Assembly: GCA_009929175.1 (NCBI GenBank)
Contig: SABC01000005.1
Coordinates: 1 to 64,000 of the forward strand
DNA length: 64,000 nucleotides
Origin: Bacteroidia bacterium
GTDB taxonomy: Bacteria; Bacteroidota; Bacteroidia; Bacteroidales; UBA932
Direction: 5' to 3'
Numbering within the stretch: the first letter of the stretch is position 1; every line of letters starts with the position of its first letter. The position numbers and the translations under genes are program-made. The notes below the pieces were generated by a model. The model searched no databases and was not told the DNA's origin. It saw nothing but the letters and a program-made list of their open reading frames with translations. Shown here one piece after another: positions 40,642-49,217 of this stretch.

Positions 40642-40672
40642 TTTTACAATGCCAAAAGGGTAGTTAGATTTG
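40642..40672 (+). promoter_or_regulatory. Promoter of the fimbrial operon
   Basis: TTTT (near-consensus -33), 19 bp spacer, then TAGATTTG (40665-40672, exact TAnnTTTG). The first ATG is only 5 bp after the box, so the mRNA is expected to have little or no leader. Confidence 0.7.
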
Positions 40673-40677
40673 CAACC

Positions 40678-41553
40678 ATGAAAAGGAAGTACATACAAAT
40701 TGCTTTGCTTGCAGCCATGTTTTTCGGGTGCGGGAAGGAAGATCATGAGACACTGTACAAAATCCGTTTCACATCGTTGTACGATCCTCATACTAAAAAC
40801 AGATACTACTTTTTGCCTGCAGGCACCAAAGCCCTTTTGTCGATATTTGACAAGAACAGGCCACATTTGGGCAATATTACGGAAAACCTGCATATTACAT
40901 CTGACGGGTCGGGTTATATGTTTTCTTATGGCTACTATATGACATTGAGAAGCAGCACCTATGATATATTTTCCTTGTCTGAGAACAGGGATTATGTCTC
41001 TCCTCTGTTTTTTTACAACAACCGTTACGCACAACCCGAAAATGGTGTGGATTACATATGGGCGGCTGTGAAGGATGTGCAAATAAACGGACCATCCGAC
41101 GTAAATCTGCTATATCGTCACATTGCAAGTAAAATTGACTTGACAGTTACAATTCCAAATACATATAGTTCCATGACAATCCGGTACATCAAGCTCACCC
41201 TGCCCAATCCCTCCTCTTCCTACCTTGATTTGGAAAACGGAACCATTTACCCTGCCGAACAATTAACCGGTCCAGTTATCCTTGAGGGATCTGGGAACAG
41301 CCGGGAAATATATTTGCTTCCTTGCCAGCCACACCTCACAGTAGAGGTGTCATATAATGCCTTATTGACTAATGGTCAGGAATTAAGTGCTATTGCAACA
41401 GGTACTGTTCCTGTCCAGATGCAGGGAGGTATCCGCTATGAGGTCAATGTCGAACCGGGTAGTATTCCTGAGGCAACGGTCACCGTATATGCAGAGGACT
41501 GGGTGTATGTCCCGGAAACAATAGAGTACTCAAAACTAAAACAATCAAAATGA
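40678..41553 (+). CDS. Fimbrillin-family lipoprotein, operon gene 1
   Basis: A 291-residue lipoprotein with signal MKRKYIQIALLAAMFFGC (Cys18). The residues after Cys (GKEDHE) are acidic, as in surface-export (LES-type) signals. The mature part matches the fimbrillin-fold pattern shared with the next three genes: YDIFSLSEN, NGVDYIWAA, LLYRHIASKIDLTV and a C-terminal EDW (AEDWVYVPETIEY). It is the first gene of an eight-gene operon, with an ATGA overlap to gene 2. I do not recognise a specific named pilin, and major versus accessory role is not decided by sequence. Confidence 0.78.
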   Translation: MKRKYIQIALLAAMFFGCGKEDHETLYKIRFTSLYDPHTKNRYYFLPAGTKALLSIFDKNRPHLGNITENLHITSDGSGYMFSYGYYMTLRSSTYDIFSLSENRDYVSPLFFYNNRYAQPENGVDYIWAAVKDVQINGPSDVNLLYRHIASKIDLTVTIPNTYSSMTIRYIKLTLPNPSSSYLDLENGTIYPAEQLTGPVILEGSGNSREIYLLPCQPHLTVEVSYNALLTNGQELSAIATGTVPVQMQGGIRYEVNVEPGSIPEATVTVYAEDWVYVPETIEYSKLKQSK

Positions 41554-42383
41554 AAGGCCCTCTTTATTTGTTCACATTAATTTTCATTTTCAGTTGCATT
41601 GGAGAGAAGCTGGAGTTGTGCCCTGATTACGGTAAATACAGGGTGGAATTCCGTGAAGCAGAGTTCCTGCAATGTAATGAGAGAGGGATTATGGTGATGC
41701 TGTACGACTCTGCAGGCAAAAAAAACATCATGGATTCGTACAGTTACTATTTGGATATCAATGATTCGTTGTTCCGGAATGACAAGGTGTTGAAACTATT
41801 TCCCGGCAACTACAAATTTTATTCAATACTCACTTCAAAAGAGCAAGATTTGTTGTTGGAGCTACCTTTAAAAAACGGCACAAGATACCTCCGGTCAGAA
41901 TCTGATGCCGTTATTGTCAAAAGCTACTCAAACATCGTAGAGCTCAGGCACCGCTTGGCCAATAGTATGGTAGTTTTTATATGTAAAGGCGACAACCTTA
42001 ATAATGAACATATTGTCAGTCTTGAATATTCACCGCCATGTGAAGAATACGGGTGTGTCAACCTGGTTACCGGAAACTGTAGTTATGAAAACCAGGTCAG
42101 CGGGTTTTTGATACCGGCCTTTTTTGACGATTTGCATGAAGAGTGGTACTCGTACTGTAATCCTATGACATCCGGGAGCGAAATTTTGATCAGGATAACA
42201 CTGCAAAACCTTGACAACCACACCAAGAGAACACTGACAACAAGAGCTGGACTGGCTTCGGGGTTTGTACAAGGTAAGGTCCACAATATTTTACTTGAGG
42301 TAACACCAATGGAAATCAATGTAGTATTGTCAGGCATAATAGACTGGGAAGATCACCTCCATGACAAGGTGGTCCAATTATAA
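41550..42383 (+). CDS. Fimbrillin-like lipoprotein, operon gene 2
   Basis: A 277-residue lipoprotein (MKGPLYLFTLIFIFSC, Cys16, then IGEKLE). It shares the fimbrillin-type arrangement in divergent form: NYKFYSILTS, KNGTRYLRSESDAV, ELRHRLANSMVVF and a terminal IIDWEDHLHD. The FimB/Mfa2 (anchor) lineage is a possibility, given the position between fimbrillins and divergent sequence, but I cannot establish it. It overlaps gene 1 by 4 bp and is separated from gene 3 by 28 bp. Confidence 0.7.
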   Translation: MKGPLYLFTLIFIFSCIGEKLELCPDYGKYRVEFREAEFLQCNERGIMVMLYDSAGKKNIMDSYSYYLDINDSLFRNDKVLKLFPGNYKFYSILTSKEQDLLLELPLKNGTRYLRSESDAVIVKSYSNIVELRHRLANSMVVFICKGDNLNNEHIVSLEYSPPCEEYGCVNLVTGNCSYENQVSGFLIPAFFDDLHEEWYSYCNPMTSGSEILIRITLQNLDNHTKRTLTTRAGLASGFVQGKVHNILLEVTPMEINVVLSGIIDWEDHLHDKVVQL

Positions 42384-42411
42384 AACAAACAAACATTTAA
42401 AATCAAACAAA

Positions 42412-43305
42412 ATGAAACAGTCAAGAGCTTTATGTTTTGCGCTTTGCGCATTTGCACTCTTAACTTCTTGTGAAAAAGAGCAAAGAGTAGAGAATGGGAA
42501 GATGGAAGCAGTCAGGTTTTTTGCAAGCTACGAAGGAGAGATCGCAACAAAAGCCACTAATCCATTCACGGTCGGATACAAATCCACTATCATAGCCTAT
42601 CAGTCGGGAGAGTCTCCTCTCACATCAACACCCATGGCAGGAACCCCTTTGGAAGCCACATCATCCACTGGGAGTGTGCTGACTCCGGAGAATCCTTTAT
42701 ACGTGCCAAAAGGGATCTATGACTTTTATTCGGTTTCCCTAAACTCTACCGTTTCTCCCGGAATTACATTCACCTCCGGAGTCTCTGCCCAACTTGCAAA
42801 CAATAAAGATTACCTGTGGGCAAAAGTCCCCTCTGTGAACGAAGGTGGGAATGTTGGGTTTGCTTACAGACACAAAGCTGTAGGTATAGAAATCAACCTG
42901 TCCCAAGGGAGCGGGATCAGCGGACTTACAGTCACATCAATAAAATTCACACCTTCAAAGGCAGATGCTTCGTCCAAAATGTCCCTTGCCACAGGCGAAA
43001 TAGGAAAGGCTGCCCAAAAGGATGTACTGACCGAAATGGCACTAAGTGGCAGCAAAGGCAGCTACATAATGGTTCCTCTGGGTAGCTTATCGCTTGATAT
43101 TGAAATTACTGCGAATCTCACAATCGGAGGCACACCTGTCACCGGAAAGAAATATCTGGCATCAATACCTGCAAGGAGTTACGAAGGTGGTACTCTTTAC
43201 ACGCTCAACCTCAGCGTTTCGGCTACATCATTGACATTTACCAGTACTGTACTGGAAGATTGGACATCACAGACAATCACAGGTGTTACATTAACAGAAC
43301 AATAG
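42412..43305 (+). CDS. Fimbrillin-family lipoprotein, operon gene 3
   Basis: A 297-residue lipoprotein: signal MKQSRALCFALCAFALLTSC (Cys20) followed by EKEQR. The early GEIATKATNPF and YVPKGIYDFYSVSLN, GVSAQLANNKDYLWAK, FAYRHKAVGIEINL and VLEDWTSQTITGV match Bacteroidales fimbrillins. This is the best-conserved fimbrillin of the four and may be the major subunit. The track start at 42361 is upstream of the signal; ATG 42412 is chosen. Gene 4 starts 2 bp after its stop. Confidence 0.82.
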   Translation: MKQSRALCFALCAFALLTSCEKEQRVENGKMEAVRFFASYEGEIATKATNPFTVGYKSTIIAYQSGESPLTSTPMAGTPLEATSSTGSVLTPENPLYVPKGIYDFYSVSLNSTVSPGITFTSGVSAQLANNKDYLWAKVPSVNEGGNVGFAYRHKAVGIEINLSQGSGISGLTVTSIKFTPSKADASSKMSLATGEIGKAAQKDVLTEMALSGSKGSYIMVPLGSLSLDIEITANLTIGGTPVTGKKYLASIPARSYEGGTLYTLNLSVSATSLTFTSTVLEDWTSQTITGVTLTEQ

Positions 43306-43307
43306 CC

Positions 43308-44201
43308 ATGAGGCGGAGTCCCTTGATAATATCACTTATTGCTGCCCTTCTGTACTTTTCCTGTACAGAAGAGGTATGCAATTGTTCTGATCCGGGGAAT
43401 TTGCAATACATGGTAAACTTCCGTGGAGAAGTGCCATTCACCAAGGCTCCGGTCCCCTTCAAACAAGGTGTGGTGGTCTCGATATTCGGATACCTGCACA
43501 AAGAGAATCCGCTCCAGAAACAATCATGGCCAGGCACTCCGTTTATAGCCGTATCGGGGAGTTATGGACAATTTTCACCGGTTGCACAAGAGAAGTTGAT
43601 TGTTCCTGGCGGAGTCTATGACTTTTATGCAATTTCGGCAAACAGCCCGGACAACGAATCTCCTGTATTTTCAAAAGGAGTCTCCGCTCCTCTTTGTAAC
43701 GGAAAGGACTACCTTTATGCAAAACACACTGGAGTAATCGTAGATGATGATCTTTTGGTGCCTCTTGTTTTCAACCATTTATGTGCTACTATTGAATTAA
43801 AAATCACATCCGACCCACCATCAATGATTCACGAAATCAGCGTGGTTTCACTCACACCTCCTCAGGAAGGAGGCTCCCTTGTTTTGTCGACAGGCAAGAT
43901 AACACCAGCCACCAGGTCACTGGATGTGTTCCTCCCCATGGAATATGTAAAAGGCAGAGCAAAAATGATAATCCTGCCAACTACCGACCAGCCGGAAATC
44001 AAAATCAGGATTGTAACAGGAGAAGGTGGCAACAGTATCTCAAACTATAAAGAGGGAGTCATACCAACTCCCAATGGGGGGTACAGCAGCGGGAAAAGAT
44101 ACATCTATATGGTTTTGTTGACATATGATAACATACGGTTTACGGGGAGCAGTATCGAAGATTGGAAGCATGAGCCAATTAACAACATTGAGTTAAAATG
44201 A
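43308..44201 (+). CDS. Fimbrillin-family lipoprotein, operon gene 4
   Basis: A 297-residue lipoprotein, the same length as gene 3: MRRSPLIISLIAALLYFSC (Cys19), then TEEVCNCSD (acidic, with two more Cys). It carries FRGEVPFTKAPVPF, IVPGGVYDFYAISANS, GVSAPLCNGKDYLYAK, LVFNHLCATIELKI and SIEDWKHEPINNI. It is a paralogue of gene 3 by these segments. The track start 43260 lies within gene 3; ATG 43308 starts 2 bp after its stop. It ends with an ATGA overlap to the DUF3575 gene. Confidence 0.8.
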   Translation: MRRSPLIISLIAALLYFSCTEEVCNCSDPGNLQYMVNFRGEVPFTKAPVPFKQGVVVSIFGYLHKENPLQKQSWPGTPFIAVSGSYGQFSPVAQEKLIVPGGVYDFYAISANSPDNESPVFSKGVSAPLCNGKDYLYAKHTGVIVDDDLLVPLVFNHLCATIELKITSDPPSMIHEISVVSLTPPQEGGSLVLSTGKITPATRSLDVFLPMEYVKGRAKMIILPTTDQPEIKIRIVTGEGGNSISNYKEGVIPTPNGGYSSGKRYIYMVLLTYDNIRFTGSSIEDWKHEPINNIELK

Positions 44202-44755
44202 TATTCAAAGCCGTCAAAGAATCGTCTTTCTCCTTGTTAATGGTTGTTTTGATGTTAACAGCCATACCTAGAGCTGTGAGCCAGTCAAAGTCTGTTTCTG
44301 TGAACATCCCGGCTCTTCTGTTGGGGTGCTACAATATTGAACCATCGTTTATGGTTAGCGGGAAAGTTTCGTTGCATGCACCGGTTTCATGGAGTCCTCA
44401 CACATTCAAAAACAACATTCGAATAAAGCATGTAATTGTTATGGCCGGGGCAAGATGGTGGAAATGGCACGGGTACTCAGGTCTTTTTACCGGAGGATAT
44501 CTTGCATATTCCAAATACAACATCAGCCCCGGGAAATACAGGTACGAAGGAAACGCAAAAGGCCTGACAATTACGGCGGGTTATGCAAAAATGTTGTCCA
44601 GGAGCTGGAATATTGAGATGCAGGCGGGACTTTTCGCAGGTGCCGCAAAACACGACAAATTCGAAAAGAAGATGTGTGGAGATTACCTGGACAGCACATC
44701 ACAAATCGTGATTTTACCTTCCGGAATATCTGTTTCATTGGTTTACTTGTTTTGA
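44198..44755 (+). CDS. DUF3575 protein of the fimbrial operon
   Basis: A 185-residue secreted protein with an N-terminal hydrophobic signal (MIFKAVKESSFSLLMVVLMLTAIPRAVSQ). The mature part (VSVNIPALLLGCYNIEPSFMV, VIVMAGARWWKWHGYSGLFTGGYLAYSKYNISP, ITAGYAKMLSRSWNIEMQAGLFAG) fits the DUF3575 pattern, an outer-membrane-type beta protein regularly found next to Bacteroidales fimbrillins. Ends VSLVYLF, a terminal aromatic strand. Probable assembly or anchoring component; exact role unknown. Confidence 0.78.
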   Translation: MIFKAVKESSFSLLMVVLMLTAIPRAVSQSKSVSVNIPALLLGCYNIEPSFMVSGKVSLHAPVSWSPHTFKNNIRIKHVIVMAGARWWKWHGYSGLFTGGYLAYSKYNISPGKYRYEGNAKGLTITAGYAKMLSRSWNIEMQAGLFAGAAKHDKFEKKMCGDYLDSTSQIVILPSGISVSLVYLF

Positions 44756-44756
44756 G

Positions 44757-46706
44757 ATGAAAGCCTTACCCTTTATATTGGCCATTACAATTTTGTGTGC
44801 ATGCAACCGTTCAATCATAAAGAGTGTCCGGCAAGGCATTCCCCCAGGCATAAGCCATGCGAATCCTAAACACAATTATGGCACAAGCCGGGAGTTATCA
44901 GAAAAAAGAGATTCTTCCGTGACGTTTACATATGTGACAAAAGAGGGAAAGGAGATATACTTTAGCTCTGCAGTCACTGATTCGGCAAGCGGAGAGGTCA
45001 TGGCTTCAAGGGAGCTGGACCAGATCACAATTACGGCAAAGGCAAACAACATAGCAGAGAGAAACGGGATAATTTCTTTGGGGTTCATTGTTTCTGTCCC
45101 TGGTCTTTTGATGGATTCCAATTGGCAGACAGAGATAATTCCTGTTATGGGCAGAGGTTTAGACACGATTCCACTGCCGCCGATTATATTAAGTGGTACA
45201 TATTTCAAGAAAACCCAAAAAAGGGGATATCAAAGATTCGAAAAGTATTTGGAGAGCATTATCCCGGAAGATGCCCCTCTTTTGGAAAATTTTGCAAACC
45301 TGACCGATCTGGAAAGATTTCTGGAAAGGCATCTTCCACAATCGTTGGTCCTTTCGGGAATCAAAAACGAAAACCTCAGAACCCCCTTCGGTGTATCAGA
45401 GCAGGAAATCATAGAGAATTATTTGAAAAAAAAGCAAATAGAAAGGAACAAACGAAAAATAGCACAAAAGGAAAAGGTTTTTTCAAAATATGTAAAAACA
45501 CCATACACATCGGGAGCAAGGCTTGACTCAATCCTGGTTAACCTGAGAAACGGAATGGATTATCACTATACACAGGAGATAGTTGCAAACGAACATTCTG
45601 ACAAGATCAAACTCTGGATTACAGGAAGGATCGTAAACAGAACGGGAATGGCAGCGGTATTGCCGGTGTCCGAAACAATTGAGTACAGTGTTTCATCGGT
45701 AAGCGCATTCACCCAGGATATCATCCGTTACAAAACAAAAGTAATTGAGAAAAAGTCAGTTTTTTGTTTCGATTCCAGGATATCATTTGAGAAAGGCAAA
45801 CATACGTTGGACTCTTTGGTTCCAGGCAACAAAGCAGAAATCGTCAAAATCAGGCAAATCCTTTTTCAAGTGTTCGAAGGTGATGTGTTTGACACAGATT
45901 CTGTGGTTATCACCTCTTCCTCCTCACCGGAAGGGAGTTACAGGTCCAATACTAAACTATCCTCGCTTCGTGCAGAATCCATAAAAAGATTCCTGCTCCA
46001 GGAGGTCAACTCAATTATCAAAAACCTGCCTTCCCGCTTATCCTTGGTAAACGATAAGGAGATTGTCTACGATTGGCATCCAAATACGTATGATCCCGAC
46101 AAAATAATCACACGAACCATTGCCGAAGATTGGGGTGAACTATACCGACTTATTGTACTGGATTCAGTAATCATCAATAAAAATGCTATCCTACAACATT
46201 TTGAGGTAAAAGACCCCGACCGGAGGGAATCGTTGCTGGCCAGACATCGCATTGATTTCAAGCATATTAAAGAGAATCTCTATCCTAAACTGAGAAGGGT
46301 GACTTTCGAACTCAAGCTGGTACGCAGGGGAATGGTAAAGGATACGATCCATACTTCCGAACCAGATAGTTTGTACAGCAACGGTGTCGATTTCTTACGC
46401 AAAAGGGAGTACAACAAAGCATTGGCAGTGCTTTCTGATTACCGGGATATCAATACGGCGGTAGCCCACATCTCACTTGGGCACGACCACTCTGCCTTAG
46501 AAATATTGGCATCCCTGGAGGAGTGTGCCCAACAACAATACATGATTGCTATCGTAATGGCTAGACAGGGCAAGGAGGAGGAGGCTGTCCAACACTTCCT
46601 GAGGGCTAAGGAGCTTGACCCAAAGATGGCTTACCGGGGTGGATTGGATCCCGAAATCAGCTTCATTATAAACAAATACAACCTGAACAGAGATTTATTT
46701 GAATAA
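44757..46706 (+). CDS. Large OmpA-like/TPR lipoprotein of the fimbrial operon
   Basis: A 649-residue lipoprotein (MKALPFILAITILCAC, Cys16). The middle part has a long charged, possibly coiled stretch (ENYLKKKQIERNKRKIAQKEKV, quoted in part) and, near residues 380-430, SSSSPEGSYRSNTKLSSLRAESIKRFL, which resembles the OmpA-family C-terminal peptidoglycan-binding segment. The C-terminus has a TPR-like tail (SNGVDFLRKREYNKALAVLSD...EEEAVQHFLRAKELDP). DUF3868/OmpA-type proteins with this mix recur in Mfa-type clusters. It may connect the appendage to peptidoglycan; this is inference. Confidence 0.72.
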   Translation: MKALPFILAITILCACNRSIIKSVRQGIPPGISHANPKHNYGTSRELSEKRDSSVTFTYVTKEGKEIYFSSAVTDSASGEVMASRELDQITITAKANNIAERNGIISLGFIVSVPGLLMDSNWQTEIIPVMGRGLDTIPLPPIILSGTYFKKTQKRGYQRFEKYLESIIPEDAPLLENFANLTDLERFLERHLPQSLVLSGIKNENLRTPFGVSEQEIIENYLKKKQIERNKRKIAQKEKVFSKYVKTPYTSGARLDSILVNLRNGMDYHYTQEIVANEHSDKIKLWITGRIVNRTGMAAVLPVSETIEYSVSSVSAFTQDIIRYKTKVIEKKSVFCFDSRISFEKGKHTLDSLVPGNKAEIVKIRQILFQVFEGDVFDTDSVVITSSSSPEGSYRSNTKLSSLRAESIKRFLLQEVNSIIKNLPSRLSLVNDKEIVYDWHPNTYDPDKIITRTIAEDWGELYRLIVLDSVIINKNAILQHFEVKDPDRRESLLARHRIDFKHIKENLYPKLRRVTFELKLVRRGMVKDTIHTSEPDSLYSNGVDFLRKREYNKALAVLSDYRDINTAVAHISLGHDHSALEILASLEECAQQQYMIAIVMARQGKEEEAVQHFLRAKELDPKMAYRGGLDPEISFIINKYNLNRDLFE

Positions 46707-46713
46707 TACAGGC

Positions 46714-48507
46714 ATGAAAAATCTTGGTCATATTTTTTTAATACTTATCACGCAAACCTTCACGTGTTGCACACAAACCGATGAGATTCCCTACATTGCC
46801 GGCCCTGAGGAACAATCTGTTCCAATTACAGTAAGGGCAAAGGAATCTCTCATGGTTAAGAGTTCCGTCCCCGAATATTTCCACGACATCAACGTTTATG
46901 TTTTTGACTCGTATGGCAATCTGGAGAGCAGCATCTTTTCATCCGGTCAGAATCCTGTTACAATCTATATGAAAAAAGGGGTAAAGAGCATAGCAGCCAT
47001 AATCAACCTGGGTCAAGTCAGTTTAAACGGAGTAACGACATTGCCTGCTCTGAGGGAGGTTACATTGGACGGCATTACAGGATCCAACGGCAATATGGTT
47101 TTTGCAGGTGAGTGCGTGGCAACCGTGACAGGACAACCTTCCAACATCACCATCCCTGTCCAAAGGGTTGCAGCAAAATTCACTTTTGTTTTTGACAAGA
47201 GTCAGCTGGATCCTGCTACCAGCATTATGGTCACAGGCATTTCTATTAAAAACACTCCATTATCTGTCTCCTTGTTTTCTCCAAACCAGCCAAGCATCAA
47301 TAAAATTGACCATTCCGGCACCTATTTGTCCGGTTACCCGCTGGAACCATCTTCCCATGATGCAGCCGTACCTTTATATGTTGCAGAAAACATGCAAGGT
47401 ACAATCGGAGCTAACAGTGACCCCCGTAACAAACATCCCGGAATATCGGAAAACCTATGCACATACATCGAGGTCACAGCACAATACAATAGCCCATACA
47501 AAACCGGAGAGGTCAGGTTCCGCAGCTTCCCGGGGCTGAACAACACGAACAATTATGATATAGTAAGAGGACGACACTACATGGAAACAATAATATTCAA
47601 AGGGAGCTCAATTGCAGATATCACTTGGAGAACAGATATTTCGGGACTGAATGATGTTCTTTACAGCATTACAGCATCAGCATCTCCTCAAACAGGAGGT
47701 TATGTCACAGGTGCCGGACAGTATGGTTACGGAGAGACACCACTGCTCCGGGCCCATGCAAACCCACAGTACGAGTTCGCAGGGTGGGATAAGCCCTTGG
47801 CTCCGGTCAGCGGATCGGCACATTATAATGCTATTTTTAACTACGTACCAATTCAAGAACCTGACATTAAGGTAACAGGGATAACATTAACACCGGCTAA
47901 TGCTACCCTTTTGAAAGGGGAAACCACTCGACTTACAGCTGTATTGACCCCGTCCGATGCCACAAACAAAAATATCACTTGGAGCTCTTCCAATTCATAT
48001 GTGGCGAGCGTTTTGCCTGCCACAGGAATTATCACGGCACACTCTCCCGGTTCTGCAATAATCACGGCACTCACCGAAGATGGATCCTTTTCTGCTGCTG
48101 CATCAATTCAAGTATATGAGCAAATCAATGTTACCACAGGAAAATATCCTGTCACATATTATAATCCCGGTACAGGGCTGATAGACAACTGTATCATTGT
48201 CATATTTGCAAGACTGGACATACCTAGGCCATCGAACATGTATATTGTAAACACAATAGGTCCGGCAGTGCAAGTGAACGTTTTGTATGGATACATGGCA
48301 AACGGCAACTCTCTCTCAGGCTCGGCACAATTGTATCTTGACCAAATAGAAAACAACGATTACCCTTGGAGCAGGACAAACGGTCATATTGTAGTAAATA
48401 TTCAAGGTCCCGTCAGTGAAGAATATATCGATCAAATCATGGATTCTCTGATAATTGAGGTCATTCCCGGCAGTATCTACATAAATAACTGGTATATCAA
48501 CTGGTAG
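46714..48507 (+). CDS. FimA/DUF4906-like lipoprotein with InlB-like and BIG2 modules (candidate tip adhesin)
   Basis: A 597-residue lipoprotein (MKNLGHIFLILITQTFTCC). Residues about 35-300 look like a FimA/Mfa1-type module (FHDINVYVFDSYGNLES, MKKGVKSIAAIINLG, QRVAAKFTFVFD). Then comes an InlB-B-repeat-like segment (about 318-365: ASPQTGGYVTGAGQYGYGE, YEFAGWDKP), a BIG2 domain (about 385-467: ITLTPANATLLKGETTRLTAV, ITWSSSNSYVASV) and a unique tail ending NNWYINW. A polymerising module plus Ig-like repeats suggests a tip or accessory adhesin. The track TTG start 46699 overlaps the previous gene; ATG 46714 is chosen. Confidence 0.75.
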   Translation: MKNLGHIFLILITQTFTCCTQTDEIPYIAGPEEQSVPITVRAKESLMVKSSVPEYFHDINVYVFDSYGNLESSIFSSGQNPVTIYMKKGVKSIAAIINLGQVSLNGVTTLPALREVTLDGITGSNGNMVFAGECVATVTGQPSNITIPVQRVAAKFTFVFDKSQLDPATSIMVTGISIKNTPLSVSLFSPNQPSINKIDHSGTYLSGYPLEPSSHDAAVPLYVAENMQGTIGANSDPRNKHPGISENLCTYIEVTAQYNSPYKTGEVRFRSFPGLNNTNNYDIVRGRHYMETIIFKGSSIADITWRTDISGLNDVLYSITASASPQTGGYVTGAGQYGYGETPLLRAHANPQYEFAGWDKPLAPVSGSAHYNAIFNYVPIQEPDIKVTGITLTPANATLLKGETTRLTAVLTPSDATNKNITWSSSNSYVASVLPATGIITAHSPGSAIITALTEDGSFSAAASIQVYEQINVTTGKYPVTYYNPGTGLIDNCIIVIFARLDIPRPSNMYIVNTIGPAVQVNVLYGYMANGNSLSGSAQLYLDQIENNDYPWSRTNGHIVVNIQGPVSEEYIDQIMDSLIIEVIPGSIYINNWYINW

Positions 48508-48532
48508 TATTAATAATCCAAACAATTTTATC

Positions 48533-48997
48533 ATGAAAAACACAACAAAAGTCCTGATGTTAACAATGGCAATATGCCTGATTTCCTGTTCAAAGGTGGA
48601 CAAACAAAACAAGATTCAATGGAACGCCCTCTCTTTCACGGAATTCGCAATTGACGACTACAAACTTTACATGGACCTGCCCCATTTGAACCTGAGCTTT
48701 CCAAGTGAGTACCACGGAAGCAAGATCACATGTGTGGATGGAATATGGAAAGACGGACCCAACATTTACACTATTGTCTCCCACAACTGGACTGAAGGGA
48801 AAATAAACCTCAAGTTGATAAAGGCTGGGAATGTAGAAAAACAATACCAGATAACTCCGGATAATTCCATAGATCTGGAAATGGAGTTACAACCGGGAGA
48901 ATATAGTTTTGAAGCAGAGGTCACAGATTCCCGTGGTGTCACAAAGTTGAATGTTTATCCTCTGCATGGAACGAGCAATAAAATGGTAGTAAAATAA
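48533..48997 (+). CDS. Small lipoprotein at the end of the fimbrial operon
   Basis: A 154-residue lipoprotein (MKNTTKVLMLTMAICLISC, Cys19). The mature part (FAIDDYKLYMDLPHLNLSF, IWKDGPNIYTIVSHNWTEGKINL, MELQPGEYSFEAEVTDSRGVTKL) looks like a single beta-sandwich ending in a Lys-terminal strand. I do not recognise the family. It is 25 bp after the adhesin-like gene and before a strong hairpin, so it is the last gene of the operon and probably a specific accessory of the appendage. Confidence 0.65.
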   Translation: MKNTTKVLMLTMAICLISCSKVDKQNKIQWNALSFTEFAIDDYKLYMDLPHLNLSFPSEYHGSKITCVDGIWKDGPNIYTIVSHNWTEGKINLKLIKAGNVEKQYQITPDNSIDLEMELQPGEYSFEAEVTDSRGVTKLNVYPLHGTSNKMVVK

Positions 48998-49028
48998 AAA
49001 AAGGAGCCGCTTGCAACCAGCGGCTCCC
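48992..49028. terminator. Bidirectional terminator between fimbrial operon and ferredoxin
   Basis: GGAGCCGC pairs perfectly with GCGGCTCC around TTGCAACCA. On the minus strand it is followed by TTTTTTT, a strong terminator for the ferredoxin gene. On the plus strand the tail (CTTCTCTT) is weaker, so it may serve both convergent transcripts. Confidence 0.85.
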
Positions 49029-49049: not shown

Positions 49050-49217
49050 CTATTCGGGACTAATTGCACTAACGGGACATACATCTGCGCATGTGCCGCA
49101 GTCTGTACAAATATTTGGATCGATCAAATAGATGTCGCCCGGAGAGATAGCCTCTACAGGACACTCGTCAATACAAGTTCCGCAAGCAGTGCAGTCTTCT
49201 GAAATTTTGTAAGCCAT
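49050..49217 (-). CDS. 2[4Fe-4S] ferredoxin
   Basis: A 55-residue ferredoxin, too short for the ORF track. Two CxxCxxCxxxCP clusters are present: CTACGTCIDECP (residues 9-20) and CTDCGTCADVCP (37-48), with no other insert. This is the short clostridial-type ferredoxin, an electron carrier for pyruvate or other oxidoreductases in anaerobes. MAYKISEDC is the typical start. A consensus promoter lies 32 bp upstream and a strong terminator follows. Confidence 0.96.
   Translation of the reverse strand: MAYKISEDCTACGTCIDECPVEAISPGDIYLIDPNICTDCGTCADVCPVSAISPE

Follow-up and report, generated by a model that had tools for sequence, protein, structure and literature searches.

In the Mfa1 fimbriae of P. 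gingivalis, shaft and tip subunits undergo cleavage at a basic residue that follows the first strand, and the anchor is left uncut; shaft and anchor carry a Trp near the C-terminus, and in the tip protein Mfa3 the chain continues past the Trp (PMC5789003). No chaperone or usher has been described for the type V fimbriae of this organism (PMC5789003). We analyzed a 64,000-nucleotide stretch of DNA from a Bacteroidia bacterium, in the following called the window, that contains an eight-gene operon resembling these fimbriae. The stretch is part of contig C78 in a draft assembly of 2.59 Mb and 342 contigs, for which contamination was estimated at 6.6%. As in Mfa1 and FimA fimbriae (PMC5789003), the pilins are lipoproteins, and from their sequences we read a basic maturation residue in the putative shaft and tip, a presumably uncleaved anchor, and a Trp before the C-terminus. 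The operon differs in gene order and number, in having a Lys instead of an Arg at the maturation site, and in the genes for a DUF3575 protein and an OmpA/TPR lipoprotein that lie within it. Neither the textbook fimA-B-C-D-E nor the mfa1-2-3-4-5 order was found in the window or its relatives, where the pilins come first; this agrees with a first reading made from the letters only (the sequence-only reading), which had described the layout as unlike either.

Two further types of loci can be compared. The DUF3575-DUF3868-Mfa1-FimB/Mfa2 loci of Bacteroides and Parabacteroides (NZ_OY725905, NZ_OY725758) likewise encode a DUF3575 and an OmpA-like protein, here before the pilin and anchor genes, and their OmpA segment is homologous to that of the window OmpA/TPR protein. 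In contrast to these loci, the window operon has its pilins first, with Mfa_like_1 instead of Mfa1 proteins, and its OmpA/TPR lipoprotein is longer, with another N-terminal domain and a TPR tail. Modules on Bacteroides plasmids (B. ovatus NZ_CP041396, pBUN1, pBFS01_1, pBspL04_2) also contain Mfa_like_1 fimbrillins, and they carry the nearest OmpA/TPR relatives of the window's genus on the protein tree. On the plasmids, however, the DUF3575 and OmpA/TPR genes come first, the anchor candidates are DUF5119 or Mfa2-like proteins, and long BACON-type proteins are encoded, with tra/T4SS genes nearby.

Operon layout and genomic setting

Eight co-oriented genes on the plus strand (40678–48997) form one operon in the order F1, F2, F3, F4, DUF3575, OmpA/TPR, FimBIG and LP (Table 1). 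All open reading frames claimed by the sequence-only reading were present, with intergenic gaps from F1 to LP of −4, 28, 2, −4, 1, 7 and 25 bp, i.e., none above the 28 bp it had given; the ATGA overlaps, which it had called several, occur at two junctions. The shared promoter that it had proposed corresponds to TAGATTTG, 5′ of the first gene. Its motif, TAnnTTTG, was present within about 60 bp 5′ of gene 1 in 6/6 serS-linked copies examined, where the window rate predicts about 0.04 occurrences per copy, and was not found upstream of gene 1 in tra-linked copies. Since only 5 bp separate TAGATTTG from the chosen F1 ATG in the window, either the transcript is nearly leaderless or the true F1 start lies elsewhere. 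The strong hairpin at which the operon had been said to end is real; its T-run, however, follows on the minus strand, and the hairpin (49003–49027) hence serves at least, and mainly, the convergent ferredoxin gene (49050–49217), although it may be bidirectional. Rfam revealed no RNA element in the operon region, and NCBIfam gave a useful name for none of the eight proteins.

Table 1. Features of the fimbrial operon, with positions in the window and the basis of each assignment.
Feature	Position	Strand	Basis
TAGATTTG, Bacteroidota-type −7 promoter element (TAnnTTTG)	40665..40672	+	motif kept in serS-linked copies
F1, fimbrillin-like lipoprotein (putative minor pilin)	40678..41553	+	PF13149, Lys site, Trp
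F2, probable anchor pilin (FimB/Mfa2-like role)	41550..42383	+	predicted fold, F3 homology, residue pattern
F3, probable shaft (stalk) pilin	42412..43305	+	PF13149, 3ufi, conservation
F4, fimbrillin-like lipoprotein (putative minor pilin)	43308..44201	+	PF13149, 3ufi, 4k4k
DUF3575 protein, predicted small outer-membrane β-barrel	44198..44755	+	PF12099
OmpA/TPR lipoprotein: N-terminal domain, OmpA-like domain, TPR tail	44757..46706	+	weak OmpA/TPR matches, model, DUF3868 homology
FimBIG, tip-like subunit: FimA/Mfa2/DUF4906 pilin domain, then InlB and BIG2 repeats	46714..48507	+	Pfam, PDB profiles, hhalign
LP, small lipoprotein, no family match	48533..48997	+	kept in relatives
Hairpin between operon and convergent ferredoxin gene	49003..49027	.	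9 bp stem, minus-strand T-run

On one side the operon is flanked by serS and ruvC; the genes on its other side encode a ferredoxin, a DUF1573-like protein and a MeaB-like GTPase (all named from sequence, not by profile search). For this genome it is hence true that the operon stands alone among housekeeping genes. Of 25 genomes of the genus, 12 gave a strong match to the OmpA/TPR protein, counting the one that contains the window; Bacteroidales bacterium CF and several metagenome bins are among the same-genus relatives. Seven copies, the window included, lie beside serS/ruvC or DUF1573/MeaB-like genes and five lie elsewhere. That separate genomes share this location makes a contaminating contig less likely. 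In relatives for which the full stretch was available, the order F1 F2 F3 F4 DUF3575 OmpA/TPR FimBIG was identical, and from this conservation we conclude that the genes are not a chance row of reading frames. In one relative (L023) the genus-trained profile, which under-detects this family, did not pick up the DUF3575 gene.

LP closes the operon in five relatives and is absent from others; residues W30-N31-A32 are invariant in the window and in the five relatives that have LP at the same place. As the sequence-only reading had it, LP is an unrecognised lipoprotein, with no convincing Pfam match and no result from a PDB sequence search. An extra gene for a lipoprotein of 179 residues precedes F1 in all five non-serS copies (e.g., L020 4042–4581, L023 4081–4620, L024 4329–4868); this protein shows 50–52% identity between groups and is without Pfam match.

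Pilin subunits and a probable type V pilus

Pfam assigned F1 (3.2e-10), F3 (1.5e-24) and F4 (4.2e-14) to PF13149 (Mfa_like_1). In PDB profile searches F1 weakly matched 4k4k, F3 matched 3ufi (1.4e-7), and F4 matched both 3ufi (5e-12) and 4k4k (8e-10), i.e., Bacteroides cell-adhesion proteins with solved structures. For F2, there was no Pfam match and a PDB sequence search gave nothing. A pilin fold was predicted in its AlphaFold2 model (pLDDT 83), for which the best 19 Foldseek matches in the PDB were all Bacteroidales cell-adhesion or fimbrial proteins, and the F2 and F3 profiles aligned end to end (E 8.9e-8). Membership of F2 in the DUF5119 or Mfa2 families was considered and dropped; hhalign against the plasmid anchor candidates gave no alignment.

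A lipobox Cys is present in F1, F2, F3, F4 and FimBIG. About 20–40 residues after this lipid Cys, where P. gingivalis pilins have their maturation site, F1, F3, F4 and FimBIG contain a Lys, typically within TK[AS]; the window variants are VKS in FimBIG and the less usual HTKN in F1. No TK[AS] site exists in F2. An invariant Trp is located 11–16 residues from the C-terminus in F1–F4 (16 in F1, 11 in F2), and in FimBIG, a protein of 597 residues, W305 is followed by 292 residues. This sequence pattern of Lys site and Trp corresponds to the definitions of shaft, tip and anchor in Mfa1-3. Of the pilins, F3 shows the strongest conservation, with an invariant TKA and an almost fixed C-terminal tail after DW; conservation and tail make it the probable shaft pilin. 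F2 has five conserved Cys, the lipid Cys counted, which could lock its first strand by analogy with Mfa2. From its predicted fold and residue pattern F2 is the probable anchor subunit, and F1 and F4 would be minor subunits. The four consecutive fimbrillin-like lipoproteins of the sequence-only reading are thus retained, with F2 better read as an anchor.

FimBIG, which had been taken for a FimA-like BIG2/InlB protein, proved to be just that: in Pfam it matched Big_2, DUF4906 and Flg_new_2, with Mfa2 just below the cut-off, and in PDB profile searches FimA chains and the Mfa4 structure 5dhm; hhalign related it to a FimA-rich neighbour family (E 4.7e-15). Among its relatives the number of BIG2 units differs and the InlB part is missing in some. 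With a FimA-like domain joined to InlB and BIG2 parts, FimBIG appears to be a tip-like subunit. Apart from the operon, the genome has two more genes for fimbrillin-family proteins with long C-terminal extensions or domains; they lie on a short contig of 3.9 kb (C133, L117) that has no anchor gene.

Three Mfa_like_1 proteins, the predicted pilin fold of F2, the FimA-like seventh gene and the pattern of maturation site, Trp and lipobox argue strongly for a pilus and bear out the type V-like fimbria of the sequence-only reading; the roles of DUF3575, OmpA/TPR and LP we infer. We consider it likely that the product of the operon is a type V (FimA/Mfa-like) pilus in which subunits and accessory pair act as set out here. 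The five lipoprotein pilins would reach the outer membrane, and the first β-strand of F1, F3, F4 and FimBIG would be cut off at the conserved Lys, perhaps by a clostripain-like lipoprotein. Such a protein is encoded elsewhere in the genome and also in most genus relatives. It speaks against this step that in P. gingivalis the fimbrial precursors are processed at Arg; a gingipain search gave no match, with the controls silent too. The groove would then be filled by a strand of the next pilin, probably the C-terminal one. F3 would build the shaft, with F1 and F4 as minor subunits, FimBIG with its InlB/BIG2 domains would form the adhesive tip, and the uncleaved F2 would keep its lipid and anchor the fibre. 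The DUF3575 barrel and the OmpA/TPR lipoprotein would probably form an accessory complex in the outer membrane which, at the foot of the pilus, keeps the fibre in place, exports it or orders it. These fimbriae are not known to require a platform in the outer membrane, as no chaperone or usher is described in P. gingivalis, and this counts against the accessory role.

The DUF3575 and OmpA/TPR pair

The identity of both proteins in the sequence-only reading was upheld. DUF3575 matched PF12099 (7.8e-38) and, weakly, an Autotransporter barrel family in Pfam, and some of its relatives match OMP_b-brl; a PDB sequence search gave nothing. The OmpA/TPR protein had weak OmpA and TPR matches in profile searches. 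With its AlphaFold2 model (pLDDT 83) Foldseek found OmpA C-terminal domains (4rha, 3td3, 6top) and PorE, i.e., an OmpA-like fold is present in the predicted structure; for the modelled N-terminal β/α region, none of the top structural hits was a clear match. Homology to DUF3868 proteins (E 6e-19) was found for the OmpA-like segment and is limited to it. Among the families that had been suggested for profile searches, PF13149, DUF3575 and DUF4906 were matched, whereas DUF3868 (PF12984) was not matched by the window OmpA/TPR protein and only weakly by 1/74 relatives. Judged by the shared segment, OmpA/TPR is a longer counterpart of the DUF3868 proteins.

Ser390-Pro391, Gly393, Asn398 and Arg405 of OmpA/TPR are kept in 71/71 sequences. 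As known from A. baumannii OmpA, an Asp and an Arg hold the diaminopimelate of peptidoglycan. Ser390, 15 residues before Arg405, occupies the position of this Asp in OmpA proteins; the peptidoglycan-binding Asp is hence absent from all 71 OmpA/TPR sequences, with the Arg invariant.

In other Bacteroidales, the gene 5′ of OmpA/TPR encodes DUF3575 at 29/50 loci. This count is from a Pfam scan, which was used because the genus-trained DUF3575 profile under-detects (27/63 loci). The 3′ neighbour matched P_gingi_FimA in 21/45 cases; 6 matched Mfa2 and 3 matched Mfa_like_1, and these counts may overlap. In annotated records of Bacteroides and Parabacteroides, the OmpA/TPR slot is taken by a DUF3868 protein, before Mfa1 and FimB/Mfa2 genes. 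From the recurring neighbours and the annotated loci we conclude that the DUF3575-OmpA/TPR pair recurs next to fimbrial loci, as can already be seen in public annotation; the neighbourhood comparison that had been suggested across Bacteroidales thus shows the linkage to DUF3575 and fimbrillins to recur.

At 11 of the 50 loci, a small single-strand DNA-binding protein gene and not DUF3575 lies 5′ of OmpA/TPR (e.g., L044, L045, L056, L064, L065, L082, L101), and several of these loci share the gene of a small Cys-rich protein alongside. Elsewhere in the window's genome, a weak DUF3868-like match (C290:29765–30034) was found that also occurs in several relatives. A second, weaker DUF3575 match (C219:226–486; L002, L029) is located apart from fimbrillin genes. 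Two unannotated faecal Bacteriophage sp. records (MT835678, MT837009) encode an OmpA/TPR relative of 32–33% identity; they are possibly misassigned plasmid or element DNA.

The proposal of an undescribed assembly system stands in part. DUF3575 and OmpA-type proteins beside fimbrillins are widespread, and the system is not wholly undescribed, as DUF3575-DUF3868-mfa1-mfa2 is already annotated in Bacteroides and Parabacteroides. A role for DUF3575 and OmpA-type/DUF3868 proteins, on the other hand, was not assigned in the accessible text of the literature searched, papers mentioning these domains included. New are the longer OmpA/TPR form, the pilins-first order, the replacement of the peptidoglycan-binding Asp by an invariant Ser, and the attachment to tra genes of conjugation, which occurs in several separate parts of the tree.

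Possible link to conjugation and alternative readings

The module might primarily serve conjugative elements in mating contact or biofilm formation, with the chromosomal copy a descendant that settled by serS. This is compatible with a pilus and concerns its purpose and origin. In three cousins tra genes lie directly 5′ of the operon, with gaps of a few bases, and encode TraJ- to TraN-like proteins (TraM and DUF4138 by Pfam, TraJ–L by position). Among other Bacteroidales, TraG, TraJ and TraO are upstream in L074 and TraG, TraM and DUF4138 in L088, and on Bacteroides plasmids the module adjoins T4SS/tra genes. On a tree of 74 OmpA/TPR proteins (midpoint root, short search) the genus clade groups with the plasmid clade, and the tra label needs at least four changes; the direction of movement, however, is not rooted by this tree. 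Better adhesion to surfaces was described for a strain carrying pMMCAT, a conjugative plasmid that has fimbriae genes, though not necessarily the present pair (PMC8102008, PMC12056005). Against a primary function in mating, no tra gene is adjacent to the operon in the window, most other-Bacteroidales copies have no recognisable tra genes in the flanks read, and plasmid cargo genes need not serve transfer. We therefore regard such a purpose and origin as possible but tentative.

Alternatively, the lipoproteins could be surface adhesins that do not polymerise into a fibre but gather in a short complex around OmpA/TPR and the DUF3575 barrel. Several different fimbrillin-like subunits of similar size would fit such a complex, the descriptions of the closest solved structures go no further than putative cell-adhesion proteins, and polymerisation is here deduced from sequence. 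However, shaft, anchor and tip have separate signatures, maturation sites occur only where expected, and the C-terminal tail after the Trp is conserved in F3, so that we consider a complex of this kind improbable compared with a fibre. It is similarly unlikely that DUF3575 and OmpA/TPR are independent cell-envelope proteins merely beside fimbrillin genes, as, although some OmpA/TPR genes are without adjacent DUF3575 or fimbrillin, the linkage recurs with Mfa_like_1, P_gingi_FimA and Mfa1/Mfa2 pilins on chromosomes and plasmids.

We hence retain the type V pilus as the preferred reading. As a more speculative extension, DUF3575 together with OmpA/TPR (or DUF3868) might be a dedicated outer-membrane base for type V pili, a class with neither usher nor platform described, and, at the same time, the module might have been taken up several times by conjugative elements of Bacteroidales, in which it would keep mating cells in contact. 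Found with pilins of different families, both on chromosomes and on plasmids of Bacteroidales from gut, rumen and environment, the pair is a testable candidate for the missing outer-membrane part; in this role, it would tie piliation to gene transfer.
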